This document shows positions 1 through 14,600 of a DNA stretch of 25,900 bases, in pieces. The position numbers and the translations under genes were made by a program. Each line of letters opens with the position of its first letter. Position 1 is the stretch's first letter. Origin of the DNA: a virus; the IMG/VR virus record IMGVR_UViG_3300023110_000150, positions 1-25,900 of that record. One strand, given 5' to 3'. Under the pieces are notes generated by a model, which was not told the origin of the DNA, did not search any database, and saw only the letters and a list, made by a program, of their open reading frames with translations.

Positions 1-1205
1 TCGTTGCCGTCACCGTCTTTGTTTGCTTCCATAAATTCTACACAACGTTCTAGTTCTGTAACGTGTTCAGGCATAAGTTTAGGATTTAAATAATCTGGAT
101 TTGTAAGTTGTGGAATATCAAACCAAACCATTTGTCTACTTGTACTATATTGCTTACGCAACTGTAATATATTTTGTAAGTATTCGTAAATGCCAAAGTA
201 ACTCAGTGTATTAAAAGTAATAATAAAAGTTAAACTGTGTCTGTCGCATTGTTCCAAATACTGCTTTACATTTTTTAACAATGTATCAAATTCTAACCCG
301 TTGCGAATGTATTCTGCTTGTTTACCCCAACTGTCTAAACTTGCAAACAACATAAAATGATCTACACAAGGAGCAACATCCTGCATTGCATCGATAAACT
401 TTTGCCATTGACCTTTAGGCGGACAACAGTTACTTGTAATACTTAAATGCAAATCTTCTTTTGGATTATTTTTTACATAGTCAAAAATCTTAAATGTGTT
501 TTTATCCATTAAAGGCTCTCCGCCTGTCATACGAAAAGTTTGTAGTGTAGGATAAATTTCAGGAAACCATTTCCAAAATGCTTCAACATAAGGATTGTCC
601 GGGCTGTTGTTTACCGGCTCCATATATTGCATGTCATTGTGTTTTCTATCAGCAAGCATATACGGTCCTTGCTTATCAATTTCTTTCATCCATTCTGTGC
701 TAAGAACAGGTGAACAATAAGAACACTTAAAATTACATGCCTGATTAAAATTTACTTCTACATAGCGTGGGCGAGCATTGCCGTCAATGCCTAACTGCTT
801 TGCTTCTTCAATAAGTCCTGGTTCAAATACGTCTTTACTTCTGTATGCTCTGTCACTAAGTTGATTGCCGCTATCTTCAATCTGCCAACAAAAATCGCAT
901 TCAGGCGGACGTATACCGTTTAACATTAGTCCACGTTGTTGCTTTTTATGTTCTGTGTTGTGCAACGCACTAGGATTGTCTTCTAATTCTTTTAGAGGAA
1001 TATGATGGCTTTTAGGATGATAACAACTGTGTGTTTTTCCTGTGGGGATATGTATGCTTACATTAAACCATTTAGCCAAACAGAAACTAGGACTGACTTT
1101 GTTAAGTTCTTCAAATACATACTCCGCATCGTGCATGTATCTAGATTCAAACTTGCCGTCAATCTTACGTAGTTCATTTCCTTTTATATTTCTATTATAC
1201 TTCAT
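1..1205 (-). CDS. N-terminal twitch domain radical SAM protein (3' end cut by window edge)
   Basis: I translated this frame by hand from the ATG at 1205 to the left edge: 401 codons without a stop, so the C-terminus is missing. Residues 157-164 read CNFKCSYC, the CxxxCxxC motif that binds the radical SAM 4Fe-4S cluster, and TGGEP follows at about 227-231 (the GGE motif that contacts S-adenosylmethionine). Ahead of the barrel, residues 40-110 hold C42, a THSCYHP segment with C61, and PPECDFCW with C103 and C106. This spacing resembles a twitch/SPASM auxiliary-cluster domain placed N-terminally, as in the known twitch-radical SAM family common in marine phages. Such enzymes make radicals to modify peptides or small molecules; the substrate here is unknown. 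The start overlaps the upstream stop as ATGA and I see no good Shine-Dalgarno, so translation is probably coupled. The family call is strong; the role is open. Confidence 0.9.
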   Translation of the reverse strand, partial: MKYNRNIKGNELRKIDGKFESRYMHDAEYVFEELNKVSPSFCLAKWFNVSIHIPTGKTHSCYHPKSHHIPLKELEDNPSALHNTEHKKQQRGLMLNGIRPPECDFCWQIEDSGNQLSDRAYRSKDVFEPGLIEEAKQLGIDGNARPRYVEVNFNQACNFKCSYCSPVLSTEWMKEIDKQGPYMLADRKHNDMQYMEPVNNSPDNPYVEAFWKWFPEIYPTLQTFRMTGGEPLMDKNTFKIFDYVKNNPKEDLHLSITSNCCPPKGQWQKFIDAMQDVAPCVDHFMLFASLDSWGKQAEYIRNGLEFDTLLKNVKQYLEQCDRHSLTFIITFNTLSYFGIYEYLQNILQLRKQYSTSRQMVWFDIPQLTNPDYLNPKLMPEHVTELERCVEFMEANKDGDGN

Positions 1206-2125
1206 TCAGGATCTATTACAAACTGCTCTGTGCTGTTTCTACTTGGGTTTTTATATACTGTCTTAAAAAATTTGCTTTGATTAGGTAATAGTGGGTTAGC
1301 ATCAATTGGAATTTCTAACTCATTAATTAAGTCATTGCCTAATCGCTGTATGTGGAACAATAACTCAGATCCTTTGTCTTTTTCATTTTCCCACATATTG
1401 TTTAGATATGTAAAATCACGAACGTTAATGTAATCCCAATCTGTACACATTGTCATATAAAGCCCTTGTCTTGCTCCGTAGATTGCCCATAAGCCGTTTT
1501 CTACATCTGCACCCACCATTAACCAAATCCAAAGCCTGTGTAAATTTTTCCAATGTCCGTTTAAAAAGTCTTGCTTACTTGGCTTGACGCCTTGATCAAG
1601 TGCCATCTTAACGCCTTCACGGAAGCCAGCTCTCCATGCTTGGTGTGGAGTTTCGTTATTATGCACAAGACTATAACAACTGTTTTGCTGAATGTATTTT
1701 AAATCCCAACAAAAGTCTACTTGTGCATGTGGATTGTCTGGATCGGCATTTTCGTGTGTACGCATATTAAGTACATAATCTTTAGGCCAGCATTTAAGGC
1801 CGCCATTGCCATACATAAGTCCGTTGATTGCATTTTGTCCACACCAACTAATAACACAATTTTCTAATTCTGCATTTTCATCAAAGTCTAATTCTTGTTG
1901 TAAGAAATCCGCTGATACAGTATTATCACCATCGACTGTGATAAAGCGAGGAGTTTCACTTAGTTCTGCACAGGCTTTGTGTGCCGCATCTGATCCTTCC
2001 ACACCGTGTACTCGTTTTGCCCAAGGAACTTTTGTAAGTAAATCTGCATAATTCTTTTCTGCATTGGGCTCGTCGTATGACAAGTAGATAATGTCATAGT
2101 CAATAATTTTTACCTTTTGTGTCAT
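1202..2125 (-). CDS. glycosyltransferase-like protein (GT-A type, DGD motif)
   Basis: A 307-residue soluble protein with no signal peptide or membrane segment. The N-terminus (DIIYLSYDEPNAE at 11-23, then KRVHGVEGSDAAHKAC near 37-52) leads into FITVDGDNTV at 61-70. A beta strand ending in an acidic DxD-type motif (DGD, 65-67) is what the metal and nucleotide-sugar site of a GT-A glycosyltransferase looks like. The C-terminal half is rich in Trp and aromatic residues (HRLWIWLMVGADVENGLWAIYG). Similar proteins are often annotated as glycosyltransferases in marine T4-like phages, but donor and acceptor are unknown. It starts on an ATGA overlap with the 178-residue gene, behind a good GAGGAAAT ribosome site, and its own stop overlaps the radical SAM start. 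It lacks the MSKG...DYVKQA start of the two upstream GT-like genes and belongs to a different subfamily. Confidence 0.75.
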   Translation of the reverse strand: MTQKVKIIDYDIIYLSYDEPNAEKNYADLLTKVPWAKRVHGVEGSDAAHKACAELSETPRFITVDGDNTVSADFLQQELDFDENAELENCVISWCGQNAINGLMYGNGGLKCWPKDYVLNMRTHENADPDNPHAQVDFCWDLKYIQQNSCYSLVHNNETPHQAWRAGFREGVKMALDQGVKPSKQDFLNGHWKNLHRLWIWLMVGADVENGLWAIYGARQGLYMTMCTDWDYINVRDFTYLNNMWENEKDKGSELLFHIQRLGNDLINELEIPIDANPLLPNQSKFFKTVYKNPSRNSTEQFVIDPE

Positions 2126-2658
2126 TTAATTTCCTCGATAACGTACTTGTCGAAAGATCCTTTAGTGTATATACTATACTCATTTGGTCTAAAAGTAAAC
2201 CTAACTTGCTTAGGTTTGGTAAAATTAACCTTAATTAAGTCTAACAAATAGTGAGGATTATCTTTTTTAGTAATACTAAACGAAAAATCTTGATCTAAAA
2301 GTGTTTTATCTTTGAGTTTTTCAAGCAACTGAGGATTTAGATTAAACACAATTATGTTTTTATTATATTTTACTGTTGCTTTTATATCGTAGTCCTCGTT
2401 TAGCTCTCTAAACTTATGAATAGAGTCATATACAACCGTTTCTTCTTTTCGATTGACTAACTTAAAATTTTTAACTTTTGTGTCATATACAACTTTATAT
2501 ACATCTTTGTTTTCCTTAAAAGAAAGTATAGGCTCTACTTGATCAAATTTAACCTCGATATAGTCAGTACCGTCCTCAAAACTAGGTCCAACACTTATAA
2601 TGTCACCGGTCATTCTTTCAAATGTAACATACTGCGGTGGTGTAAAGTCAACCTGCAT
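2122..2658 (-). CDS. conserved hypothetical beta-rich phage protein
   Basis: A 178-residue soluble protein that I cannot assign to a function. The first 35 residues (TPPQYVTFERMTGDIISVGP, then an acidic stretch) resemble the short beta-hairpin openings of many uncharacterised cyanophage and pelagiphage proteins. The rest alternates hydrophobic and charged residues with many Lys, Val, Tyr and Phe, suggesting an all-beta fold. There are no cysteines, no membrane segment and no obvious catalytic motif. It lies between two glycosyltransferase-like genes, overlapping the upstream gene by 11 bases and the downstream one by ATGA. It may be a partner or acceptor in the same pathway, but that rests only on position. 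The ribosome site GAGG and the bases next to the ATG (GTATCTT) match those of the first gene of the cassette. Confidence 0.7.
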   Translation of the reverse strand: MQVDFTPPQYVTFERMTGDIISVGPSFEDGTDYIEVKFDQVEPILSFKENKDVYKVVYDTKVKNFKLVNRKEETVVYDSIHKFRELNEDYDIKATVKYNKNIIVFNLNPQLLEKLKDKTLLDQDFSFSITKKDNPHYLLDLIKVNFTKPKQVRFTFRPNEYSIYTKGSFDKYVIEEIK

Positions 2659-3472
2659 AAGATACCTCTAATTTTTTAATCATTTCATCTGTAAGAAAAT
2701 CGTTTTCTGTATAGTGAACAACTTCTCTTTGTTTATAATTGCCAAAGAATAAATCTCCGTCATAGTAACTAGGTATTTTTTCTTGCCAACTAAATGTTTC
2801 TTCTGACCAGCCTTGTATTTTTGGCTTCATATGAACAAATCTTGGAAAGTCTTTTGTTTTATTTGTAACTTGATCTTCAATTCCTAATAACTTAACTGCG
2901 ATTGCCGCAGTTCTATCCATACTAGGTTCTTTAGGATACTTTTTAGGAGAATATTTTCCATAAAATAACTCCCAATTATTATTAATCAATTCTACCATTT
3001 TATAAAATTCTAATGCTATATCAGATTTTTTAAAATAATGAAACGCCATATAGATGTCCGGCAGGTCATTTACATAAAACATTTCTCTGTAATAGTTATA
3101 TTTTACAGGAGTGCCTCTGTAAGTATTAATATGGCTAGTAAAATATAATTCATACTTGGCTAGATAGTCCCACCAATGGCTTATATCAGTGCAAAAGAAC
3201 ATATCACTGTCAAGAACAACTGTTTCTTCATATGGTGATACATGATATAACTTCCATCTATGCTCTGTAGCAAACCTATCAGTAGCAGTATCTTCCAACC
3301 AGGGTGTTTCAATTACCTCATCAAACACTTCTCGATAGTAATTAGGAATAGGCGTATGTGTTACCAAAGAAACATTGTTTATTTTTTGTGTTTTTTTGAT
3401 GCTCAAGGCACATACATATGCTTGTTTTACATAATCTAAACCTTGTGCAAAAATTAAATAGCCTTTACTCAT
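2648..3472 (-). CDS. glycosyltransferase-like protein (GT-A type, DSD motif)
   Basis: A 274-residue soluble protein. It begins MSKGYLIFAQGLDYVKQAYV, a strand and helix typical of the nucleotide-sugar end of a GT-A fold. ETVVLDSDMFF follows at about 83-93, where DSD (88-90) is the expected DxD metal-binding motif. The mid-region has aromatic strands (YNYYREMFYVNDL, IYMAFHYFKKSD) like those of GT8-type enzymes with short domains. Length fits a minimal single-domain transferase. It is a paralogue of the neighbouring 285-residue protein: same start pattern, similar position of the DxD strand and a shared YFKKS(D/R) element. The 8-base overlap with that gene and 11-base overlap with the next point to coupled translation. 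Donor sugar and acceptor cannot be read from the sequence. Confidence 0.75.
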   Translation of the reverse strand: MSKGYLIFAQGLDYVKQAYVCALSIKKTQKINNVSLVTHTPIPNYYREVFDEVIETPWLEDTATDRFATEHRWKLYHVSPYEETVVLDSDMFFCTDISHWWDYLAKYELYFTSHINTYRGTPVKYNYYREMFYVNDLPDIYMAFHYFKKSDIALEFYKMVELINNNWELFYGKYSPKKYPKEPSMDRTAAIAVKLLGIEDQVTNKTKDFPRFVHMKPKIQGWSEETFSWQEKIPSYYDGDLFFGNYKQREVVHYTENDFLTDEMIKKLEVSYAG

Positions 3473-4322
3473 TTGCTAACGCCTTATTAATTGTATCATT
3501 AAGTTCGTACTTGTTCATAATATGTACATCTAAATCTTTTACTGTCAAACAAGTGTACTGTCCGTGATACCCTTTCTTTTCAATCATTAATTCTATTTTG
3601 TTATCCTGAACTTTAAGAGGAATATCTCTATCAAGAGTGTAATACATCTTGGTTGGCAAATCTTTAACAAAATCGCCTGAAGAAAATCCGTTTAAAATAT
3701 GTGCGGCAATAGCAAAAGCATGATCGTTCCTAAAAGTTACAGTACCAACGTTGAAAGTCATTGCATAATGGTCATAATTTTCTTCAACATGTCTAAGTGT
3801 ATCAAAGAACAGTTTAGCTTTTCTTGATTTTTTAAAATAAACTGCTGTTGCCCAATAAAAGTCAATACCACTATCATTAATATAATTAAATTCTCTAGTA
3901 TTTCTCCATCTTGCCAAGTCAGTAGCATGTCTATTAAACATTAGGCTTTGCTTTGCATTGAAACATTTAAGTAACTGCTTGCTATTAATAATGTAATCTG
4001 TATCTAGCAGGATTGTTTCGTTGTATGGCGATAGTTCGTAAGCCATTGATCTATGTTTATTATTAAATGGCAAGCTATTCCAATGGAATGGTCCATTATA
4101 GTAACGCTTCCATGTTGCAGATTTACTTTTTTCTACAGAAATAATTTGATCAAACATATCCTTTTCCTTAGGATATGCTTCTTCAATGTATTCTGATTCG
4201 CTAGTGATAAGAGTTACAGGCAATCTAAGAAATTGCTCGGAACGTTTTGCTAAAAAAATTGCTTGCTTCACATAATCAATCTGAGGATTGTTAAATGCAA
4301 AGCATATAATACCCTTTGACAT
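3465..4322 (-). CDS. glycosyltransferase-like protein (GT-A type, DTD motif), paralogue of the next gene
   Basis: A 285-residue soluble protein starting MSKGIICFAFNNPQIDYVKQ. The ETILLDTDYII segment at about 102-112 carries the putative DxD motif (DTD, 107-109). Downstream, DFYWATAVYFKKSRKAKLFF aligns by eye with the YMAFHYFKKSDIALEFY of its neighbour, and FRNDHAFAIAAHILNG matches the MDRTAAIAVKLLG region. The two genes are therefore an old tandem duplication, now well diverged. GT-A transferases of this kind transfer sugars from nucleotide donors in the cytoplasm. The start sits in a TAATG overlap with the stop of the 114-residue gene, with an AGGA about 11 bases upstream. Substrate is unknown; the phage capsid, fibres or a host glycan are all possible. 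Confidence 0.75.
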   Translation of the reverse strand: MSKGIICFAFNNPQIDYVKQAIFLAKRSEQFLRLPVTLITSESEYIEEAYPKEKDMFDQIISVEKSKSATWKRYYNGPFHWNSLPFNNKHRSMAYELSPYNETILLDTDYIINSKQLLKCFNAKQSLMFNRHATDLARWRNTREFNYINDSGIDFYWATAVYFKKSRKAKLFFDTLRHVEENYDHYAMTFNVGTVTFRNDHAFAIAAHILNGFSSGDFVKDLPTKMYYTLDRDIPLKVQDNKIELMIEKKGYHGQYTCLTVKDLDVHIMNKYELNDTINKALANE

Positions 4323-4666
4323 TAATCTAGTAGTCCTGAAACTGATCTGTTTTTAATTAGTTGCGAATATTCTGTATGATATTTGTTAGAGGCACTAAAG
4401 TAAACATTTGTAACCTCTGTCAAAAACTTTTCTAAGTTCTTAATTTCAAACGGAGTACCGTTGTCATCTGTTAAAACTGCTGAAGTTTGTTTTGATTGCA
4501 CTAAAAAGTTAACAAAATTTACAAGATCTTTTGTGGCTGTAAATTTGCCGCCTTGTGTATAAAACACAAGTTCGTCTTGATATCTATCTTTTAGTACTTG
4601 TTTCTGATTTTGAAGTGTGATATTGTAATTTGAAAAATCTATTGCCTGTTTTAGTCTATCGTCCAT
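4322..4666 (-). CDS. small conserved hypothetical protein, first gene of the modification cassette
   Basis: A 114-residue, probably largely alpha-helical protein (MDDRLKQAIDFSNYN at the start, SQLIKNRSVSGLLD at the end) with a central beta segment around FYTQGGKFTATKDLVNFV. It looks like a short protein family carried by T4-like marine phages, recognised by the DDRLKxAxDFSNY opening and the RSVxxLLD ending. I know of no function for it. No membrane segment, cysteines or catalytic motif are visible. The ATG at 4666 is well supported: TAGGAG lies a few bases upstream, and a consensus sigma-70 promoter ends about 25 bases upstream. Being first behind that promoter and coupled by TAATG to a glycosyltransferase-like gene, it may work with the cassette, but this is inference from position. 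Confidence 0.7.
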   Translation of the reverse strand: MDDRLKQAIDFSNYNITLQNQKQVLKDRYQDELVFYTQGGKFTATKDLVNFVNFLVQSKQTSAVLTDDNGTPFEIKNLEKFLTEVTNVYFSASNKYHTEYSQLIKNRSVSGLLD

Positions 4667-4691
4667 AAGATACTCCTACACTGTATTGTGT

Positions 4692-4720
4692 ATTATAAAC
4701 TATTTAACGGGCAATGTCAA
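4692..4720 (-). promoter_or_regulatory. consensus sigma-70 promoter for the glycosyltransferase/radical SAM cassette
   Basis: On the minus strand TTGACA (4720-4715) is followed by a 17-base spacer and TATAAT (4697-4692), a perfect match to both bacterial sigma-70 boxes at the ideal spacing. An A/T-rich tract just upstream could act as an UP element. Transcription would begin near 4685, giving a leader of about 19 bases with a TAGGAG ribosome site before the ATG at 4666. It lies in the 66-base gap after the 308-residue structural gene, the longest gap in the window. Confidence 0.85.
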
Positions 4721-4732
4721 GAGTTTTTTAAA

Positions 4733-5659
4733 TTATGAAAGGTTTCTTGCATTAGCAAACACAGGCTTATTAACATTAACACTGTTTACGTTATTTGGTC
4801 TATTACATTGCACTGTGCTTGTTGTTCTCGGCGTTACTGCTTCGTCGAAGTTTGGATTTGGACCTTTGTCGTCGTTGAAATAAATTCTAAAACGTAGTAC
4901 AGGTCCGTCGGTTGCATCTTCTTTTGCCTGAATTGTAAAATCGTTATCGGCATAAGAGCTTGCAGTTTTTGTAAAAATAGTTTGATACGATGTAGTTAAA
5001 TCAGTATGTCCAATAACTGTGCCTTCTGATCCATTGCTTGTAGCAGAATGACCAAATCTTACTAGTCCAACATTAGTAAGTAAGTTTCTCCAGTCAGTAT
5101 CAATTGCACCGCCTCCTGAAGCAAGACTTCCACTAAACACAATTTCGCCGCCAGCATTAAAAAATGCACGTCTATGATCACTTGCTGTCATATTAGTTGT
5201 AGTGCCGTCACCATTAGTAACGTTGTATGCTTGGAAAGTTACAGTAACTTCATGATAAATTGTGCCGTTCCAGTCTGTGTCTGTAAAGGACGAAACACCC
5301 GTTTCAACACCAGACTGTCCTGTAGCAATATTTAAACGGTCGGAAACAACGTCTAAGCTCAGTGCTTCAAACTCTGCCATACCTTTTTTAGTAGTAGGAT
5401 TAGAATCTTCAATTAAGTCGCCAACTGCCATATCAGCAATTTCGCTAGGCAAAGAACCTGTCTGGTGTACCCTTGCTTTCTTAATATCTTCAAACAGCCT
5501 TGACATATGATCTGCTTCGACTGTTGCATTTGCTGAAACTTGGAAACTTGATAGTGCCTGCCCGTATCCTTCGTCGCCTGCACCTTTACCCATTACACCG
5601 TTAATTCTTGCTTGTAACTGGTTGTAACGAGCCGCTGTAATTGTATCGCCTACTGCCAT
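4733..5659 (-). CDS. virion structural protein, tail/fibre-associated
   Basis: A 308-residue protein opening MAVGDTITAARYNQLQARIN, a start seen in many phage virion proteins of marine T4-like genomes. Its first 110 residues look helical; the rest is Thr/Ser/Gly-rich beta structure. HRRAFFNAGGEIVFSGSL followed by DTDWRNLLTNVG (about 165-195) is a signature I associate with these structural proteins. It probably sits on the outside of the tail or in a fibre. It has its own perfect TATAAATA late element and an AGGA ribosome site 9 bases before the ATG, so it can be expressed independently of the upstream gene. No terminator is visible after its stop, so late transcripts may run on into the cassette beyond. 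The exact place in the virion is unknown. Confidence 0.75.
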   Translation of the reverse strand: MAVGDTITAARYNQLQARINGVMGKGAGDEGYGQALSSFQVSANATVEADHMSRLFEDIKKARVHQTGSLPSEIADMAVGDLIEDSNPTTKKGMAEFEALSLDVVSDRLNIATGQSGVETGVSSFTDTDWNGTIYHEVTVTFQAYNVTNGDGTTTNMTASDHRRAFFNAGGEIVFSGSLASGGGAIDTDWRNLLTNVGLVRFGHSATSNGSEGTVIGHTDLTTSYQTIFTKTASSYADNDFTIQAKEDATDGPVLRFRIYFNDDKGPNPNFDEAVTPRTTSTVQCNRPNNVNSVNVNKPVFANARNLS

Positions 5660-5687
5660 TGTTAACTATCCTATTATCTACTAGTTT

Positions 5688-5695
5688 TATTTATA
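5688..5695 (-). promoter_or_regulatory. T4-type late promoter element TATAAATA
   Basis: The minus strand reads TATAAATA, an exact match to the T4 late -10 element used by the phage sigma factor gp55. It ends 28 bases before the ATG of the 308-residue structural gene, which leaves room for a short leader holding AGGA. The TAA stop of the upstream 493-residue gene (5693-5691) lies inside the element, so one short sequence serves both purposes. Confidence 0.8.
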
Positions 5696-7172
5696 CTTTT
5701 AAAAGACATTCAACAAGTTTTTCTGATGCGTCACTATTTGATTCTAAAGCAATACCTACTAAGTCACCGGCACCTTCTGCAGATGCAAGCCCATTCTGTG
5801 CAACAAAAACTCTATCGCCTTTATTAACAGCACCAAGAATTCTAACAGGAACACGCCCTTTAAGTGCAAGTGCTTCACCTTCTGCATCTGCATTCATTAA
5901 GTATGCTGGCTTTTCACTAATTACACCAACTGCAACGTCTCCAGGTTGTGCAACGTCTGCTTCAAAATCTTCATTAGCTGAAATTGCCATTACTGTGCCA
6001 ACCGGTGAATCTCCAGTTGCAGTACTGTATACTTCTGCTAAGTCAGCATATTTTGCTTGTGTAGCAGTACCGATAAATTCGTTTGCTGTAATATTTGCAC
6101 TAGCATCTCTAATTGCAACTGTGTTGTTTGTTGCAGAAGTAGACCCTGGTAAGTCACTACCACTTACTCTTACAGCAGAACTTGATGTAGCAAGACCATT
6201 GAACGAATTAGCATACATTGTTCTCCATTTAAAACTAGCACTTCCTAGATCAAACGAAACTGTTGTAAGTGGATTGATGCCTGTTTCTAATACCTGTGCA
6301 ACGTCGACTTCTTGTGCGTTATCAGTAACGCTAAATTTAATTTCGTTGCCTACTTGGTTTTTAATAACACCTTCATTGTCATTTTCAATAGCAATTAATA
6401 AATCGTTTGACGTTCCTACTGTTAGTCCAGCGTCTGTAAATCTTGCAATAGTATTAAATACTGCATCTTCGCCTGGAGTAGATTGAATAAAGTTAGCCGC
6501 GTCAACTCCGCCTAATTTAAGTGCGTTTGTGGCTGTACCCCAATATCTATGATCCGAACTTGTGACACCTAGTGTACTATCTGTAGTATTACGGAGTGTT
6601 AATCCTTGACGTATAACATCAAATCCAGTAATAGCATTTTCACTATCGCTACTATCAATTGTAAATTGTGTAGAGCTAGTTATAAAAATTGTTTCGTCAT
6701 TTACAACTGCTCTAATAACTGTTTGAATGTTTCCTACAGTATCTCTAACTTCTGTAGTAACCATTTGGGTAATAGTATCGCCTTGGCTTTGTGGTCCAAT
6801 TAAAACAAATCCTCCGTCTCCGGAATTAGCATACAATTGATTGTTCTCGTTATCCCACCAAAAATCGCCTTCTGTTAATCCAACTGGCTGTGTTGTGCTT
6901 ACTTCTGCACCGCCTGTTGTACGGAATTTTGCACCGTCATAAAATTTTAATTTACTGTTCGAACTATCAAACCAAATCTGTCCGCTGATAGGTCTTGCAG
7001 GTGATTGTGAACTACTGAAGTTTTCAAGCAGTGAAACTAGATTTTCATTTTCAATTTCACCATAGCCTGCATAGTTTTTACCAACTAACTTCAGATCCGT
7101 TGTTTGGTCAATGGTACCGTCCTCAACAACTGTAAGTTGGGTTCCGTTTGTCCTATTAATAATGTATGCCAT
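5691..7172 (-). CDS. tail fibre-like structural protein with C-terminal YADLAE domain
   Basis: A 493-residue protein. Residues 1-130 (MAYIINRTNGTQLTV, then NYAGYGEIENENLVSLLENF, SGQIWFDSS, FVLIGPQ) form the N-terminal module shared with the 597- and 672-residue proteins upstream, probably the attachment end of a fibre. The middle is Thr/Asn/Ser-rich beta structure. The last 120 residues begin KYADLAEVYSTATGDSPVGT and include VGVISEKPAYLMNADAEGE, a C-terminal domain common on marine phage structural proteins. It may act as a folding or cap domain, and I would not exclude a self-cleaving peptidase-like role, but no catalytic residue is certain. A CATAAATA late-like element and an AGGGG ribosome site lie just upstream of the ATG. 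Its stop codon is embedded in the promoter of the next gene. Confidence 0.8.
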   Translation of the reverse strand: MAYIINRTNGTQLTVVEDGTIDQTTDLKLVGKNYAGYGEIENENLVSLLENFSSSQSPARPISGQIWFDSSNSKLKFYDGAKFRTTGGAEVSTTQPVGLTEGDFWWDNENNQLYANSGDGGFVLIGPQSQGDTITQMVTTEVRDTVGNIQTVIRAVVNDETIFITSSTQFTIDSSDSENAITGFDVIRQGLTLRNTTDSTLGVTSSDHRYWGTATNALKLGGVDAANFIQSTPGEDAVFNTIARFTDAGLTVGTSNDLLIAIENDNEGVIKNQVGNEIKFSVTDNAQEVDVAQVLETGINPLTTVSFDLGSASFKWRTMYANSFNGLATSSSAVRVSGSDLPGSTSATNNTVAIRDASANITANEFIGTATQAKYADLAEVYSTATGDSPVGTVMAISANEDFEADVAQPGDVAVGVISEKPAYLMNADAEGEALALKGRVPVRILGAVNKGDRVFVAQNGLASAEGAGDLVGIALESNSDASEKLVECLLKV

Positions 7173-7198
7173 TTTATTATTACCCCTGAATTACAATG

Positions 7199-7206
7199 TA
7201 TTTATG
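7199..7206 (-). promoter_or_regulatory. late-promoter-like element CATAAATA
   Basis: The minus strand reads CATAAATA, one mismatch from the T4 late consensus TATAAATA. It lies in the 35-base gap just after the stop of the 597-residue gene and 26 bases before the ATG of the 493-residue gene, almost the same geometry as the perfect element at 5688-5695. That matching geometry is the main support. Confidence 0.6.
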
Positions 7207-7207
7207 C

Positions 7208-9001
7208 TTATACGCTAGATGTTAAATCTTGTATATAAGCCCATTGGCCCCCTACTACTCTAAATAGTTTCAATGTTCTGTCTACAGTCAATGCCACATT
7301 ACCACTAACGTTAGTAAATGTCAAGTCTGCGATAACACTTTCAGAACCATCATCATTACCGTTTCCGTCTAATTTCTGTACTGCAACTGTAGTTTTTTGT
7401 AGTGCCGCAACAAGATCTGCTGATTGGAAAGTTGCTGTTGCACTTGTTGTATCAGTACAATGTATTTTTGCTTCACTGCCGTTTTCTTTAGTATTGGCAG
7501 GTGCAATATCTTCTAACACACTTGCTATTTGGTTATTTGTTAAACCTGTAATATCTAAAGCAAGTGATAGTGTTTCTGTATTAATTGCACTATCTACATA
7601 GGCTTTTGTTGCTACATCCTGAGCATTTGTAGGATCTGCAACGCCTGTAATCTTTTGATTGTTTGTAATATTAATATCGCCGGCACTGGTGATATTTAAT
7701 CCGCCACTTGTTGTAGTTATAGTTGTACCGTTAATATTAGTATTGTCTACATCTAATGATGTTAGTGTGCCAATGCTTGTTAAGCCAGGTGCTGTAGTTC
7801 CTGTAATAAGAGTTACACCGCCTGATCTTAATGTATTATTTTGAATATCTATGTTTACATTAGATGTCCAAGAATTAGTAACTTGGTTCCAAAGGAATTC
7901 TTTGCCTCCTTGTGCAGACTGTAATATAATGCCGCCGCCATCTGCTTGTAAATCGCTAATTAGTGTACTATCATCTGTAATACCTAATTCAATATTTTTA
8001 TCTTTAACACGTAGTACTTCAGTTTCAATACCAATTCTTGAACCTTCAATAATTAAATCGCCGCTAATTCTAGCGTCACCATTTACATCTAATGTATACT
8101 CAGGCAATGGTTGGAATAATCCAATATGTTTGTCTGTTGTTTTGATTGTAATTGCATCAACCGGACCGTCTGTTGTTCTAACACGAACTCTGTAGTCATG
8201 TCCAGTAAGTTGGTTTTCAGTAACAAACGTTGTACCTAGTACATAACTTTTATTGTTTTGTGATAAACCAACAGTAATACCATTACTATTTTGTACAATT
8301 AACGATCCGCTTGTAGTACCGTTTGTATCTGCTGGAAGAAACTGTGCCGCACGTCTTAAGTTTCCATTTGCATCAATAAGTGCATCTGCTTGAGCCGCTG
8401 TACCGTTCCATCTAAAATCAACTTCAGCAGTATTAAATCCTTTTTTAAGTTGTCCACTAAATCCCGGAATTGCTTGTCCAACACCCGGTGTAAAATCAAT
8501 GTTAGCAAACACACCAACAATACTGTTACCAATGTAAAACTTAATAACTGTACGACTTGTATTCTGTGTGTCAAGTATTGTATCAACAACTGTTCCTGTA
8601 ATACCTTGGAATGCACTATAGTCTGGACCAACTAATACTAAGTCAGTACCATCAAAAAAGTACATTTGGTTTGTTTCGTTGTTGATCCAAAGGTCGCCAG
8701 CAACCATGTTAGGCTGTTGTGCAGAAACAATAGGGCCGCCGCCTGTAGTAAACTCTGTTCCTGTATATACTTTTAGTCTATTAGTACTTGTATCCCACCA
8801 AAGTTGACCTGCTAATGGATTTGCCGGTGCGGAAGTGTTAGCAAAATTTTCAAGCATTTTAACAAAGTTTTCGTTAATGCTTTCGCCAAACCCTGTATAA
8901 TTACGACCAATGAGCGAAATATCAGTTGAAGTTGTATCTAACTGTCCATCTGCTAGGTCAGTTAATAGTCCTCCATTTGTTTTATTAATTTGATAACTCA
9001 T
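7208..9001 (-). CDS. tail fibre/adhesin-like structural protein
   Basis: A 597-residue protein. Residues 1-135 (MSYQINKTNGGLLTDLADGQ, NYTGFGESINENFVKMLENF, AGQLWWDTS, GDLWINNETNQMYFF, VLVGPD) are the N-terminal module of this three-member family. The next 100 residues also match the 672-residue protein (IPGFSGQLKKGFN against IPGFTGIKPGFN). EYTLDVNGDARISGDLIIEG in the middle and ATKAYVDSAI near residue 470 are typical of trimeric, beta-rich phage fibres. The C-terminus (DLTFTNVSGNVALTVDRTLKLFRVV) differs from both paralogues, suggesting a distinct tip. Its ATG overlaps the upstream TAA as TAATG, but a strong purine-rich stretch (GGAGTAGGGGG) precedes it, so it need not rely on coupling alone. 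It is probably a distal tail or baseplate component. Confidence 0.8.
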   Translation of the reverse strand: MSYQINKTNGGLLTDLADGQLDTTSTDISLIGRNYTGFGESINENFVKMLENFANTSAPANPLAGQLWWDTSTNRLKVYTGTEFTTGGGPIVSAQQPNMVAGDLWINNETNQMYFFDGTDLVLVGPDYSAFQGITGTVVDTILDTQNTSRTVIKFYIGNSIVGVFANIDFTPGVGQAIPGFSGQLKKGFNTAEVDFRWNGTAAQADALIDANGNLRRAAQFLPADTNGTTSGSLIVQNSNGITVGLSQNNKSYVLGTTFVTENQLTGHDYRVRVRTTDGPVDAITIKTTDKHIGLFQPLPEYTLDVNGDARISGDLIIEGSRIGIETEVLRVKDKNIELGITDDSTLISDLQADGGGIILQSAQGGKEFLWNQVTNSWTSNVNIDIQNNTLRSGGVTLITGTTAPGLTSIGTLTSLDVDNTNINGTTITTTSGGLNITSAGDINITNNQKITGVADPTNAQDVATKAYVDSAINTETLSLALDITGLTNNQIASVLEDIAPANTKENGSEAKIHCTDTTSATATFQSADLVAALQKTTVAVQKLDGNGNDDGSESVIADLTFTNVSGNVALTVDRTLKLFRVVGGQWAYIQDLTSSV

Positions 9002-11019
9002 TAGCCCCCTACTCCTGTATAAATGATATAGTTCATTGTTGTGAACGGTTGCATAACATCAAATGGCTCGCCAACTGAACTTTGAGTCAGGATACCACCG
9101 GACGTTGGATATGCTTGTCCTGCTTGCGAACCTGTTGGTGCATCGTATTGAATACCTTCTGGGTCTGTAGGAACACCTTGAATATCTCTAATAACATAGT
9201 ACTGGTCACCTGATGGTCCACGTAAATCGTGTTCGTGTTCTGGTAAGTTTTCAACAGCAATGTTTTTCTTCTCATCACCACCTGATTGTCCAATAACATC
9301 TGCTGAAACGTTTGTTACCCTGCCCGAGCTTGATCCGCCCATGTTGTCAGCACCTAATGGTTGTCTACCTCTTAAGTCAGGTACAGCAAAGTTACCTGAA
9401 GTTGTAAGTGCTTGGTCTTTATATCTATAACTAATAATTCTAAACAGTTCTAAGTAGTCAGCAATTCGATACTCACTACCATCACACAATAACCATCCTG
9501 CAGGTGCTGTTGTACCTGCATATGGAGTAACTACACCAATTGGTGTAGTTGGAACAGCATCAAGCAAGTTACGCTGTGAGATTTTATATACACCCGGTGT
9601 ACCTGATGTTCTGTTAATAATAAATTCGTCGTCAATATTTGACACAGAAACTTCTGTCTTATCAGCAATAAATGTATTACTAATTGTTGTTTCAAACTGT
9701 TTAGTTGTGCCGCCTGTTTGTCCATCAAATGATATTTGCGTCGAACTAACGTCACCTGTAATTTGGAATGTTGTTGCTTGTGCTAGTTTGTTTGTGCTAC
9801 CAGAACGTCCTGATACTGTACCAGTAACGTTACCAACTAAGTTACCAGTAAACGATGTAGCATAAACATTTGCCCACTTAGTTGTACTAGTACCTAAATT
9901 ATTTGTATTGTTGTTTTGTGGAACAATATTTGAAGAATTAATTTGGTCATTAAATGTTGCTTCTTGTCCAACAAACAGTTTTTTAGCAATACCAATACCG
10001 CCTGTTGTTCTAATACTACCTGTACCAATACTGCTTGAATCTGTAGTGCTGTTTACAATTAATTCACCACTGCTTTGAATATTACCAGTAACGTCTAGTG
10101 CTTCTACTGGGCTTTGGTTATTAATACCAACTTTTTCTGTAGAGTCGACTCTTAGTACATTTTTCTGCACACCTAAGTTGTTTACTCGCAAATCAATACT
10201 TGCACCAGATGTTAAATTACTAATAACGCCTGAACTTCCTTCTACAGCAAAACTAATAAGTCCGTCTTGTCCAACTTGTAAACCAGTGTTATTTCGAATA
10301 ACAATAGGGCTAGTTGTTGTACTTGTAATGTCTGTTCTTAAAAAGTTAGTAGATGGTACTGTTGCATCTCCAACAACTAATCCTTCTGCTTTTTCTGCTG
10401 TACCGTAGTACTTTAGTGCATCGCCTGTTGCGTTTACTGACGATAAATTAAAGCCTGGCTTAATTCCTGTAAATCCCGGAATAGTTGCTTTAGGTGTAAA
10501 TTCTTTTGTAGAGTAAATTACAATAACACGACCTTGTACTTCAACTTGTAACACAGTGTAGTTAATATCGTCTGTACCAACTAGTACTGTCGGTTTAGTA
10601 CCAGTAAGCAAACCGTCACTGAATTCAGGACCAACTAGTGTCCATCCAGAACCTGTAAAAATGTACAACTGGTTATTGTCTGTGTCGCTCCATAAATCGC
10701 CTGCAATAGCAGTAGCGGCGTCTGGCTCATTGTCACCTTTCTTAATACCACTAGCATTTACCCAACTAGTACCGTCATAAATTTTAAGACTGTCAATTCC
10801 TGGAGTATTATCATACCATAGTTGACCTTCAACTGGGTTTTCTGGAGCAGTAGTGCTTGCAAAATTTTCTAGTATTTGTAGGAAGTTTGTACCAATAACA
10901 GCACCATAACCACTAGATCCTGAACCAGGAATTCTTAATGTTGTAGTGTCATTAATAGTTCCGTCTTCAACGGTAATGCTTCCTTTGTTAGGGTCTGTAT
11001 AGTTAATATTATAAGCCAT
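9001..11019 (-). CDS. tail fibre protein with C-terminal phage tail-collar domain
   Basis: A 672-residue protein. Residues 1-140 (MAYNINYTDPNKGSITVEDG, GYGAVIGTNFLQILENF, EGQLWYDNT, GDLWSDTDNNQLYIF, LVGPEFSDG) form the shared family module. A beta-rich shaft follows, with VGINNQSPVEALDVTGNI and GSIRTTGGIGIAKKLFVG. From about residue 490 comes a classic tail-collar domain: GVVTPYAGTTAPAGWLLCDG, YRIADYLELFRIISYRYKD, then FAVPDLRGRQPLGADNMGG at about 540-560. This domain is found at the tips of short and long tail fibres such as T4 gp12. The protein probably forms a trimer contacting the host surface. Its start overlaps the 203-residue gene (TAATG) and the ribosome site is weak, so coupling is likely. 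A perfect 22-base palindrome lies exactly where the collar domain begins. Confidence 0.88.
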   Translation of the reverse strand: MAYNINYTDPNKGSITVEDGTINDTTTLRIPGSGSSGYGAVIGTNFLQILENFASTTAPENPVEGQLWYDNTPGIDSLKIYDGTSWVNASGIKKGDNEPDAATAIAGDLWSDTDNNQLYIFTGSGWTLVGPEFSDGLLTGTKPTVLVGTDDINYTVLQVEVQGRVIVIYSTKEFTPKATIPGFTGIKPGFNLSSVNATGDALKYYGTAEKAEGLVVGDATVPSTNFLRTDITSTTTSPIVIRNNTGLQVGQDGLISFAVEGSSGVISNLTSGASIDLRVNNLGVQKNVLRVDSTEKVGINNQSPVEALDVTGNIQSSGELIVNSTTDSSSIGTGSIRTTGGIGIAKKLFVGQEATFNDQINSSNIVPQNNNTNNLGTSTTKWANVYATSFTGNLVGNVTGTVSGRSGSTNKLAQATTFQITGDVSSTQISFDGQTGGTTKQFETTISNTFIADKTEVSVSNIDDEFIINRTSGTPGVYKISQRNLLDAVPTTPIGVVTPYAGTTAPAGWLLCDGSEYRIADYLELFRIISYRYKDQALTTSGNFAVPDLRGRQPLGADNMGGSSSGRVTNVSADVIGQSGGDEKKNIAVENLPEHEHDLRGPSGDQYYVIRDIQGVPTDPEGIQYDAPTGSQAGQAYPTSGGILTQSSVGEPFDVMQPFTTMNYIIYTGVGG
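9499..9520. repeat. inverted repeat inside the collar-domain coding region (7-base arms)
   Basis: TGCAGGT at 9499-9505 and ACCTGCA at 9514-9520 are exact inverted copies with an 8-base loop. They lie in the codons for the conserved APAGWLLCDG part of the tail collar. They are 8 bases from the longer palindrome at 9529-9550, so the two could form adjacent hairpins. There is no U tract, so I do not call it a terminator. Confidence 0.6.
9529..9550. repeat. perfect 22-base palindrome at the start of the tail-collar domain
   Basis: The half AACTACACCAA (9529-9539) is followed at once by its exact reverse complement TTGGTGTAGTT (9540-9550). Read on the minus strand it encodes the TTPIGVVT run that opens the collar domain. 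No spacer separates the halves, so a single-strand hairpin would need to open a few central bases. Confidence 0.75.
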
Positions 11020-11630
11020 TATTCATTGAATCCTGATAAACTTTGTACCCTAACTGTGTAATCAATTTGAATAAGTCTATTCAACGATTTTTGTACTGGG
11101 TGAAAAATTACGTGTGTTAGCAATCTACCTTGTCCGTCCGGACTGTATGCTAACAAACCTAGTTCGTCAAATACATATAAACTGTTTGCATTTGCGGAAT
11201 TATCAATAGCATCTTGTCCATCTGGCTCACCGTAGTCTAACAAACAAGTTACTAGAATGTCTGTGTAGTTTGTGCCGCTTACGTGGCGTGTTTCAATCTT
11301 GTTTCTAGTAGGATCAACATTGTTTACACTTCTATCATCTACAATTTTCTTAAATGTTTGGCTATATAGGCTTGCATTTGTACCTGTGCTGTTTGGTGTT
11401 AAGTATGTAATAATACCAGTAGGATCAATGCTAGTACCACCATTACCAAACGCCATTTCATATATGAAACCTGTGCCTTGATTACTTAAACTTTCTGCTA
11501 ACGAGATACTCATATTCTCGTAATGAATTGCATTTCGCTTGTCTACAATAACCTCTCCGGAAGAGGGGTCCCATATCTTAATATGGCCTTGTAGTAACGT
11601 ACCGTTTGTGTCTTTAAATTTGTCTGTCAT
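11019..11630 (-). CDS. virion structural protein, baseplate/tail-associated (function not assigned)
   Basis: A 203-residue protein of the kind found next to the giant structural protein in marine T4-like phages. It opens DTNGTLLQGHIKIWDPSSGE and continues RNAIHYENMSISLAESL, with FIYEMAFGNGGTSIDPTG at about 54-71 and HVIFHPVQKSLNRLIQIDYTVRVQ near the end. It is mostly beta structure, with no membrane segment or enzyme motif. The IHYEN...GNGG pattern recurs in uncharacterised virion proteins of cyanophages. It could be a baseplate wedge or a connector to the fibres encoded downstream, but I cannot name the T4 counterpart. It starts 22 bases after the giant gene's stop, with AGGAT upstream, and its own stop overlaps the collar gene start (TAATG). 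Confidence 0.75.
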   Translation of the reverse strand: MTDKFKDTNGTLLQGHIKIWDPSSGEVIVDKRNAIHYENMSISLAESLSNQGTGFIYEMAFGNGGTSIDPTGIITYLTPNSTGTNASLYSQTFKKIVDDRSVNNVDPTRNKIETRHVSGTNYTDILVTCLLDYGEPDGQDAIDNSANANSLYVFDELGLLAYSPDGQGRLLTHVIFHPVQKSLNRLIQIDYTVRVQSLSGFNE

Positions 11631-11649
11631 TTTTTGATCCTATACACTA

Positions 11650-11657
11650 TATTTATT
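11650..11657 (-). promoter_or_regulatory. possible late-promoter-like element AATAAATA
   Basis: The minus strand reads AATAAATA, one mismatch from TATAAATA, with the giant gene's TAA stop inside it. It ends only 19 bases before the ATG of the 203-residue gene, shorter than at the two other elements, which would leave a very short leader around the AGGAT ribosome site. It is a weak candidate. Confidence 0.35.
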
Positions 11658-14600
11658 CAGGTAGCTCGGCTTCTTTGGATTTCAAGAAGCGTGTGATTGA
11701 ATTTTCTACATCTTCTAGTGATTCTCCAAGCGGCGTCCATAGTTTTCCTTGTTTTTTAACTATAATTATGCTTTCTCCTAGCACAGGGGTTCTAGTAAGA
11801 ACTAAGTTGCTATTTTCAACAGTAAATTCTGCTGGAACAGTAACATCGCCTTCCGGCGAATCTTGATTGACCGTGATATCAAATACTTTTACGGCTGATT
11901 TTCTTAGTCTCTTGCCTCCGACAAACACTTCTAGTTCATTTACCGATGACGGTGTGTACCCTAAATCAAAGGTATTTGTACTGTCGTCGCCGGTGTGTTT
12001 AACTTGTACTGTTTCATCTTTGTATGGAATAGTTTGTGTATAACCTTGATTATACACAACACTGCCTGCATCATGTACATGTTTAACACCTGTTCCTAGT
12101 GTGCCTCGTGTAAGTTGTTTTAGTTTGTTACCTTCTTTAACAAAATACTCAATTCTTTCGCTGTTAATAAAAATTACACCTGGTAAGTTAATTGCACTAT
12201 TTGGCTCTGGTAATCCTTCGGCATTTTCAAGCACAATCTTATTATCAAACACGGATAAATCTTCTGCTAGTCTGTATGCACGATCATCACCTAAACGTTT
12301 ATATACAGTTCTATTAAAGATATCTTTAAACTGTCTAAACGCAAATCTATTAGAAGTAATACCTGTAGTACCAAATTGAATTATGTCAATCTGATCGTTG
12401 TCTGCTATTTCATTTAAAATTTTAACAAAGTTTCCATCTTCTGTAACATAGTAGTCTACATTAGGAGTTAATAGATCTCCGTTAATAGTTACCCAAGCAT
12501 ATTGAGAGTCTTTTGCTTTAATATCTAATTTAATAAGTCCATTTCTTAATCTGTGATATTCTTCATGGTCATCGGTACCAACTGTTAATGTTACCCTATT
12601 AACTGCATCGAGTCTTGTTCTTTCAATTGCTTGTACATCATGTTTTGCAAAATTATATATAGACACTGTGTCACCGTCAGCAGGGGCATCATTTAATGTT
12701 ACTGTTGCTACGGTGTCAGCAACTGTTAAAGTATAATCTGCATCAGCAGTTACAAATATTTGAAGTCTGTCACCATCTTCTCCTACTCCATCAAACAACT
12801 CAACTGAGCTGTTAAACGGTCTAATGATATAATCAACTGCTGGCACAAGTGCTTCGCCGTTTAGTAGTAAAACAATATCATCACTGCCTAGTTTGCCTGG
12901 AGGTTGTTGGTATGTTCTTAACTGATATTCTCTTGCTGTTGAAATAACAAATTCTTCCTTGTATCCTGCGGAAAGTATCTTGTTATTCTTTTTAACAATA
13001 ATATTTGATAATAAAGGTATTGTTGCAAATGGAATTCTTGACAATGCAAATGCAGAAGTTGATCCGTCACCTGTAAACGTATCAATACCAATCTGACTAA
13101 ATGTTTTTTCTGTCCCGGTATATATTGCAAAATTAATAACTTTGCCTTCTTCCGGCGGCAAACCAAAGTCAAATCCAATTTTATTATTAGCAGTTTCTAT
13201 AACAACATATTCCGGTTCTTCTCCATCCATAGAAAGATATGAATTTGATTCTTCTGTATAAGGAACATTTGATTCATATACAATAGTGCTTCCGTCTGTT
13301 TCAAACGTTCCAATATCTAAAATACCATTACCATTTGAGGTTAATGAAATAATATTAATTTCATCTGTGTTTGACAACGCACTATCAAATGTTACAGTTT
13401 TGTCTTTGTAGTTTACAGTATAGTTACTAACAACTATGCCGTTAACTTTAACTATAAGTGCATCTTTGTTTTGTGGTAGGAAGTCAAACTTGTAAGTTAA
13501 TACACTACTATCTGCAGAATATACATTACTGCTGATTTCACTTCCGCCAGTTCCTACTCTGTGGAACACTTTAATATCAACTGTATCTAAAACTTGTCCT
13601 GGAACTAGTTCTTCGGGACCTTTCGATGTAGTCGGTGTTACAAAACCGTCACCGTCAATATTAATATCTTCTGCATTAATACCTTTTGCTGTTGTATATC
13701 TTAAATTGCCTCCATCAACAAGTGTATCATATGACTTAGGGTCAGGAATGAAACTACCATCACTAGTTTCTTTGCGGATAACAATAATGTCGCCTGCTTC
13801 TGTTGGAATTAATTCTTCATCAATAGTTACTGTTGTAGTTGTGCCGTCGCCTGTGATACTACGCATTTTAGCATTTTTGTTTGTGATAGACGTACTATCT
13901 TCACTGCTTGTCCATGCTTCGTCGTCAATACGTACACCATTTAAGTATACATTGTAAACAACTCCATTTTCTAAAGGCTGATTTAATTCAAATACACTTG
14001 TGCTTCCATCTAGAACAAAAACTTCATCTTCGTAAGTAGTATCAAATACATCAAAAGCACTTTCATTCCATCTGTCGGCGTTCCAACCTGCTCCGCCGCC
14101 AAAGTCAATACTTGTAACTTCTACGCCGCCGTAATCAACACCATCCATTAGCTGTGATAAATCGTTTGCAAGTTGTCCAGTAGTAGGATTGTACAGTAAA
14201 TTAATTCTATCTTGTGCATCTAACAGTTCTGTACCTTTTTTGTACTGAACTGTGATTTCGCTATTTGCATTAGGTGCTGTATTAAATAGGATTCTGCCTT
14301 TATATCTATCGTACCCTTTAGTAGTATCCTTCTTGTTATCATATGTGTATTGACTTCTTAACGCCTCAACACCATTTACAAGCACTGTAATATTAGTGCT
14401 AATAACATTCATAGGATATTTTAGTTCAAATACTTGTTGATTAGGCTGTGATGTAAATGTTTCAGTTTCATCAAGTGTTGTAATTAAGAAATTACCAGTA
14501 GTTCTATCAAATTTAACAACAACATGAGCACTTCTAATTTTTCCGTTGCCTAGTTGTGCGGCCGCTCTACCAGCAGATCCGTCATCATCAAGACTTCCTT

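Follow-up and report, generated by a model that had tools for sequence, protein, structure and literature searches.

Why would a virus keep glycosyltransferase and radical S-adenosylmethionine (SAM) genes packed together directly behind its tail-fibre genes, and what would their products modify? The question is raised by a stretch of DNA of 25,900 nucleotides, positions 1-25,900 of the IMG/VR record IMGVR_UViG_3300023110_000150 (hereafter the window), in which six genes occupy positions 3-4666 of the minus strand. The original prediction treated the six as one unit of three GT-A-like transferases, a twitch radical SAM enzyme and two proteins of no known function, lying directly after the tail genes and possibly acting on the neighbouring fibre proteins, one of those two proteins or a host surface glycan. 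We found that five of these genes form a fixed core behind a promoter of their own and that the radical SAM gene is optional; tentatively, we read the cassette as an early operon that would alter an envelope glycan of the infected cell.

Five genes form a fixed core and the radical SAM gene is optional

Gene calling took the longest open reading frame (ORF) at each place. The cassette genes are as follows.

4322-4666, minus strand: u114, 114 amino acids (aa; ORF call)
3465-4322, minus strand: GT285, 285 aa, glycosyltransferase family 8 (GT8)-like, DxD at 107-109 (ORF call, glycogenin profile)
2648-3472, minus strand: GT274, 274 aa, GT8-like paralogue with DxD (ORF call, profile)
2122-2658, minus strand: X, 178 aa, two beta-sandwich domains, immunoglobulin- or fibronectin type III-like (Ig/FN3-like), non-catalytic (AlphaFold2)
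1202-2125, minus strand: GT307, 307 aa, putative GT-A transferase (alignment)
3-1205, minus strand: twitch radical SAM enzyme, 401 aa, cut by the window end (NF033640)

Successive genes overlap by 1, 8, 11, 4 and 4 bases, so that the predicted arrangement of six minus-strand genes behind tail-fibre-like ORFs was correct in coordinates, lengths and 1-11 base overlaps. In the overlapping contigs L002 and L003, the radical SAM gene is complete and encodes 466 aa (L002:12268-13668).

The gene order was first observed in 160 loci, and the full core was held by 222 loci, of which 109 were left after redundancy was removed via k-mer overlap; all are contig fragments. Gene order was then checked against bait bias with u114 as the only bait, in 45 distinct loci at most 90% identical. 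The successive genes were GT285 in 45/45, GT274 in 41/42, X in 39/40, GT307 in 34/36 and the twitch radical SAM gene in 31/34 loci, and all but one of the exceptions were shifts caused by one spurious small ORF from the simple gene caller. Co-occurrence and order were thus conserved far above chance, as the original prediction had anticipated.

The sixth gene, however, did not belong to the fixed set. Among the 109 loci, GT307 was followed by a twitch enzyme in 81 and by a GT434-type gene instead in 12. Four contigs of 50-162 kb from the GT434-type group had no twitch match, two of them having no radical SAM match at all, whereas the remaining 18 contigs carried 3-14 twitch matches each, nearly all within about 30 kb behind GT307. 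A whole group therefore retains the other five genes while missing the twitch radical SAM gene, and the proposed six-gene unit was rejected: u114, GT285, GT274, X and GT307 make up the core, to which a radical SAM gene may or may not be joined.

Relatives of the cassette proteins number hundreds in IMG/VR, whereas a tblastn search with GT307, the twitch enzyme (twitA), GT274, GT434 and u114 detected no cultured relative in 50,697 phage records. GT307 occurred at only 7 loci among 84,980 bacterial genomes; because six of these (all but L248) carried phage tail genes, they are probably binned phage contigs, and a cellular origin of GT307 was rejected. Among the matches listed for the 203-aa tail gene upstream of the cassette, all isolate relatives (87 records) were jumbo myoviruses of the Atu_ph07/Phosso/121Q type. 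The carriers are a family of large, probably aquatic bacterial viruses.

The core has a sigma-70 promoter of its own

The gap between the cassette and the fibre genes, and the starts of the fibre and tail genes, contain the following features.

4692-4720, minus strand: sigma-70 promoter TTGACA-17-TATAAT, 12/12, in the gap between fib308 and u114
4733-5659, minus strand: fib308, the final fibre-type protein ahead of the cassette; a predicted late gene, outside the cassette
5688-5695, minus strand: T4-type late promoter motif TATAAATA, exact match, before fib308
7199-7206, minus strand: late promoter-like CATAAATA, before a 493-aa fibre gene (fib493)
11650-11657, minus strand: late promoter-like AATAAATA, before the 203-aa tail gene

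When window positions 1-12500 were scanned with the TTGACA/TATAAT consensus, the site before u114 was the sole one to score 12/12, the runner-up scoring 10. The same consensus was applied to the relatives on a scale to 12.5. The best site before u114 averaged 11.15 in the 109 loci versus 8.59 in shuffles, and a score of at least 11 was reached there in 75% of these loci versus no more than 8% for the other genes tested; site density was 6.84 per kb before u114 versus 0.05 elsewhere. Further sigma-70 sites preceded GT434 (17) and GT307 (11). The late motif TATAAATA, allowing one mismatch, showed the opposite distribution: it preceded the 203-aa gene in 48/48 loci (18% expected), fib493 in 89% (15% expected) and fib308 in 66% (27% expected), but u114 in only 17% (22% expected). 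By the T4 scheme, these late motifs versus the sigma-70 promoter predict that the fibre genes are late and that the cassette, in spite of lying beside them, is an early unit. Since the promoter classes differ, membership of the cassette in a late tail operon was rejected, and a coupling to the tail genes was not borne out.

An inverted repeat overlapped the -10 region in 38% of loci versus 6% in shuffles and was not above chance at four other genes. Its arms comprised 33 different sequences in 41 cases, and the copy in the window (gap 4667-4725) is weak. An operator and a hairpin are both candidates for this dyad; an RNA hairpin masking the Shine-Dalgarno sequence was rejected, the dyad spanning the Shine-Dalgarno core in only 11/41 cases.

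Early transferases could in principle add sugars to modified bases of the phage DNA as in T4, whose glucosyltransferases are early or middle genes, and the early-type promoter and phage-wide conserved core would suit such DNA hypermodification. However, the sole thymidylate-synthase-type gene on large, possibly incomplete contigs keeps PFNIASY, which marks it as a genuine thymidylate synthase and not a hydroxymethylase. No hydroxymethylase was found on these contigs, and no TET/JBP match was obtained, though the control of that search was also silent. We rejected this explanation as very improbable.

Four core proteins diverge together

Pairwise identities of u114, GT285, GT274 and X covaried among loci (rho 0.69-0.76). 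After the fibre backbone was removed from these correlations, partial rho was still 0.65-0.74, compared with permutation maxima of 0.13-0.26. By contrast, fib308, which adjoins u114, showed no covariation (partial rho -0.12 to 0.08), and GT307, which adjoins X, reached only 0.15. Because these two neighbours hardly follow the four proteins or do not follow them at all, adjacency alone does not explain the co-divergence. The signal persisted in the GT274-bait and GT307-bait subsets and was weaker in the u114-bait subset. We infer from the co-divergence that u114, GT285, GT274 and X function as a single assembly, whose partners, GT307 and the radical SAM genes, can be exchanged.

These data bear directly on whether the virion is the target, that is, whether a phage protein (X, tail or fibre) is glycosylated in the cytoplasm by these enzymes and its glycan tailored by the radical SAM island behind the core. 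In favour of this, X co-diverges with the GT8-like pair and changes fastest in the core (23% mean identity), but the adjoining fibre protein does not track the cassette, and the early-type promoter is unlike those of the late fibre genes. For want of co-divergence, fib308, one of the adjoining fibre proteins that the original prediction had named as candidates, was rejected as a specific partner. Position alone does not favour a virion target either, because the gene order is simply inherited throughout the lineage.

The core proteins

GT285 and GT274 are paralogues that match glycogenin-2 by profile (best E 2.6e-5, residues 4-116). The Pfam Glyco_transf_8 cut-off was not reached, 1/47 members matching with E 0.0038, and we therefore call the pair GT8-like rather than filing it under Pfam GT8. 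The DxD motif occurred in 109/109 loci for GT285; at the corresponding columns, GT274 had DxD in 99/109 loci, ExD in 4 and no residues in 6. Glycogenin, the nearest solved relative, glucosylates protein, which favours a virion target.

GT307 is the most conserved cassette protein (mean pairwise identity 63%), with invariant D-x-D, H, E and W positions. It matched Pfam GT2 in 1/22 members with E 0.009, below the cut-off, and an hhalign comparison with the GT8-like pair was negative, so GT307 is only weakly indicated as a putative transferase. Of the three GT-A-like transferases predicted, the two GT8-like enzymes thus stood, but the third, its invariant D-x-D notwithstanding, has a weak family call. 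In L121 and L151, GT307 is fused to a GT434-type domain (547 and 534 aa). The high identity of GT307 suggests an acceptor conserved lineage-wide, a further point consistent with a phage-encoded target.

The twitch radical SAM call held, the N_Twi_rSAM profile NF033640 giving 328 and 308 bits against a curated cut-off of 170 (328 bits for the gene in the window). CxxxCxxC was found in 345/345 complete family members. The active-site motifs were intact, and the theme of sugar transfer combined with radical SAM chemistry was upheld.

X constitutes one homologous family at a fixed position (107 distinct sequences, 151 loci). AlphaFold2 predicted two beta-sandwich domains with a predicted local distance difference test (pLDDT) score of 90.8, and FN3-like matches were weak. 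Neither sequence nor fold searches of the PDB gave a significant match, and the matches in BFVD were uncharacterised phage proteins only. Long X relatives carry CBM5/12-like inserts (CBM_5_12 E 3e-4, below the Pfam cut-off), and GT274 of three relatives has an internal CBM5/12-like module; such modules in both proteins suggest a glycan acceptor. For u114, AlphaFold2 predicted a helix-hairpin-helix-hairpin-helix fold, with two hairpins between two long helices (pLDDT 91.7); Q21, D67, P72 and F81 are invariant. Prefoldins were its best Foldseek matches by probability, yet insignificant (E > 0.5, TM score < 0.5), and sequence and fold searches of the PDB gave no significant match. The analysis thereby defines u114 and X as conserved families of no known function that are partners of phage glycosyltransferases.

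In many relatives, a fast-changing radical SAM island follows the core

Past the window end, the gene chain continues in contigs L002 and L003. A further twitch enzyme of 452 aa comes first, followed by an SGNH-type protein, a 262-aa protein of no known function and a SPASM radical SAM enzyme; next come a 434-aa GT307-like protein, a 256-aa protein of no known function and a second SGNH-type protein, and then a 74-aa ORF and one more radical SAM gene. The six genes originally boxed are therefore the head of a longer cassette. Two proteins of this chain with GDSFT-type starts (L002:14998-15798 and 19579-20373) resemble SGNH hydrolases or acyl-group enzymes and had no Pfam match.

Relatives with an island carried 4-18 radical SAM matches per contig. 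The 382-kb contig G006 had 14 radical SAM domain matches, most of them in its island at 241188-271464 (L253, L252), and the 275-kb contig G007 had 18, most of them in its island at 19402-55899 (L254/L255) and a few outside it; both islands lie right behind GT307, and most matches were of the twitch type in both. Radical SAM motifs occurred in 2 of 443 ORFs in the upstream background, compared with 2.7 per 9 kb downstream. Together, the two islands also encode a UDP-glucose/GDP-mannose-type dehydrogenase, a DegT aminotransferase, an NAD epimerase, a methyltransferase, a saccharopine-type dehydrogenase, a B12-binding radical SAM protein, Asp/Asn hydroxylase-type proteins and QueC-like PP-loop proteins; the methyltransferase, QueC, one of two hydroxylases and a sulfotransferase were below Pfam cut-offs. 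No membrane-spanning protein was found in the core and one was found among 676 downstream ORFs; multispanning proteins were absent from the core, the two islands and the 676 ORFs. The 14-18 matches on the largest contigs, concentrated at a fixed place, make the role of phage radical SAM enzymes testable.

The islands also contain a conserved ORF of 53-75 aa (27 distinct sequences; L002:20364-20588, L252:14244-14411) with the consensus QATNNNIxQFNKqAHHNSxNWYkAVIxWYveqYGDLPSkxGPGKdvkL. It lies mostly behind the 256-aa-type gene, but in some loci immediately ahead of a SPASM-type radical SAM gene, and in the island of L002 the conserved 74-aa ORF adjoins radical SAM genes; it is a possible precursor or partner. 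Together with the SPASM radical SAM genes that surround a Cys-rich-tailed protein in the Atu_ph07/Phosso locus (described below), this ORF is what would speak for radical SAM enzymes crosslinking or epimerising a phage or host peptide that the transferases then glycosylate. We nevertheless consider peptide modification improbable: no peptide substrate is evident within the six genes, which hold no precursor-like peptide; the core also occurs where twitch radical SAM genes are absent; and the entire glycosyltransferase core is missing from Atu_ph07 and Phosso, in which it gave no matches. A Cys-rich C-terminal peptide on fib308, in the fashion of Atu_ph07, was also looked for and is not present, fib308 having an ITAARYN-type N terminus and a C terminus that varies across loci.

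The target of the cassette

Our preferred reading, to which we give a probability of roughly 0.4, is that the cassette is an early, cytoplasmic glycan-transfer operon acting on an envelope glycan of the infected cell. Host RNA polymerase would read it from its sigma-70 promoter before the late fibre genes switch on. As one assembly, and together with GT307, u114, the two GT8-like enzymes and X would attach sugars to an acceptor that is constant throughout the lineage, while in many relatives the fast-changing island, with its twitch and SPASM radical SAM enzymes, sugar-nucleotide enzymes and additional transferases, would make or tailor unusual sugars or substituents. The acceptor would most likely be of the lipopolysaccharide (LPS) inner-core type, reached by soluble transferases, and the altered envelope glycan would block or change later phage adsorption.

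The predicted early timing tips the balance slightly towards a host-surface glycan, and away from the virion, as the target. Soluble transferases, sugar-nucleotide enzymes and glycan-binding-type modules, in a system with no membrane proteins, suggest cytoplasmic assembly of the glycan on an acceptor that is either soluble or membrane-peripheral. Pelagimyophage cassettes of GT8 and radical SAM genes beside fibres have been assigned to host O-chain change (PMC7029224); here, the lack of membrane proteins makes O-antigen flipping or polymerisation unlikely, and we rejected it, which leaves addition to LPS of the core type, carried out by soluble enzymes, as the sole form that would fit. Several points weigh against an envelope target: the core has no membrane-spanning or export machinery, its high conservation across a diverse lineage is at least equally compatible with a phage-encoded acceptor, consensus promoters are no proof of expression timing, and X and u114 are without known function.

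Large algal and amoebal viruses glycosylate their own capsids or fibrils. Glycosylation of the virion in the same manner is the possible, though doubtful, alternative that we took most seriously, and it gains from the apparent solubility of all the enzymes and from the glycans known on mycobacteriophage virions, at least as cited in PMC12619734. On the other side, GT307, GT274, the twitch enzyme and u114 all lack a detectable relative among the isolates of the 50,697 phage records, and there is consequently no virion proteome to consult. A related but unlikely proposal joins this target to the early switch: u114, the two GT8-like enzymes, X and GT307 would be a fixed assembly that decorates phage proteins with a glycan, the sugars of which as many as about 18 radical SAM enzymes would tailor. 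If true, such a glycoprotein factory would be the phage counterpart of giant-virus glycosylation, with chemistry not seen in known viral glycans.

Comparison with known systems

In P22/Sf6-type seroconversion, the membrane proteins GtrA, GtrC and Oac are encoded beside tailspike genes. The cassette resembles these systems in placing presumed receptor-changing enzymes beside receptor-binding genes, but differs in that no membrane protein of the gtrABC or oac kind was found in the core, the two islands or the 676 downstream ORFs. It is also like the pelagimyophage host recognition cluster, in which tail fibres have GT8-type transferases and variable radical SAM cassettes as neighbours and whose freshwater members lack the LPS and radical SAM genes (PMC7029224). 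Unlike that non-syntenic island, the present cassette has five genes in fixed order, its own sigma-70 promoter and the unnamed u114 and X families. In jumbo cyanophages such as P-SSM2, LPS/capsule clusters likewise combine paralogous transferases and sugar-nucleotide enzymes in hypervariable islands (PMC7824862), whereas here twitch radical SAM paralogues dominate the islands and are attached to a fixed glycosyltransferase core. Compared by description only, moraphages are similar in that they are large phages from aquatic habitats whose core genome includes four glycosyltransferase orthogroups, and their lineage may be the same group as these phages, although radical SAM goes unmentioned in the moraphage account (PMC12619734).

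Two isolates, Atu_ph07 and Phosso, have the upstream tail genes in common with these phages (the 203-aa protein is 52-54% identical), and a radical SAM-rich cassette comes next in them too. Window positions 11653-25830, ahead of the fibre genes, hold a single ORF of 4725 aa, and virion structural proteins of about 4450-4560 aa occupy the same place in these two phages. In contrast to the lineage described here, they have no glycosyltransferase core; behind the collar gene, their slot has at least three radical SAM genes (some SPASM-type), a cupin-like protein and a protein ending in CHxSCHxSCHxSRSRR. The first radical SAM enzyme of the slot is nearest the peptide maturases DynA, PapB and DarE, and the tailed protein lies between SPASM radical SAM genes at L163:21062-21952 (Atu_ph07 gp170) and L162:20330-21250 (Phosso). 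In the published description of Atu_ph07, a virion-protein-rich cluster is placed at CDS 170-215 (PMC6102473), and CDS 170, at its edge, is this tailed protein, whose sequence looks like a radical SAM-modified virion protein tail. The slot behind the tail genes may therefore be occupied by modification systems that differ from phage to phage.

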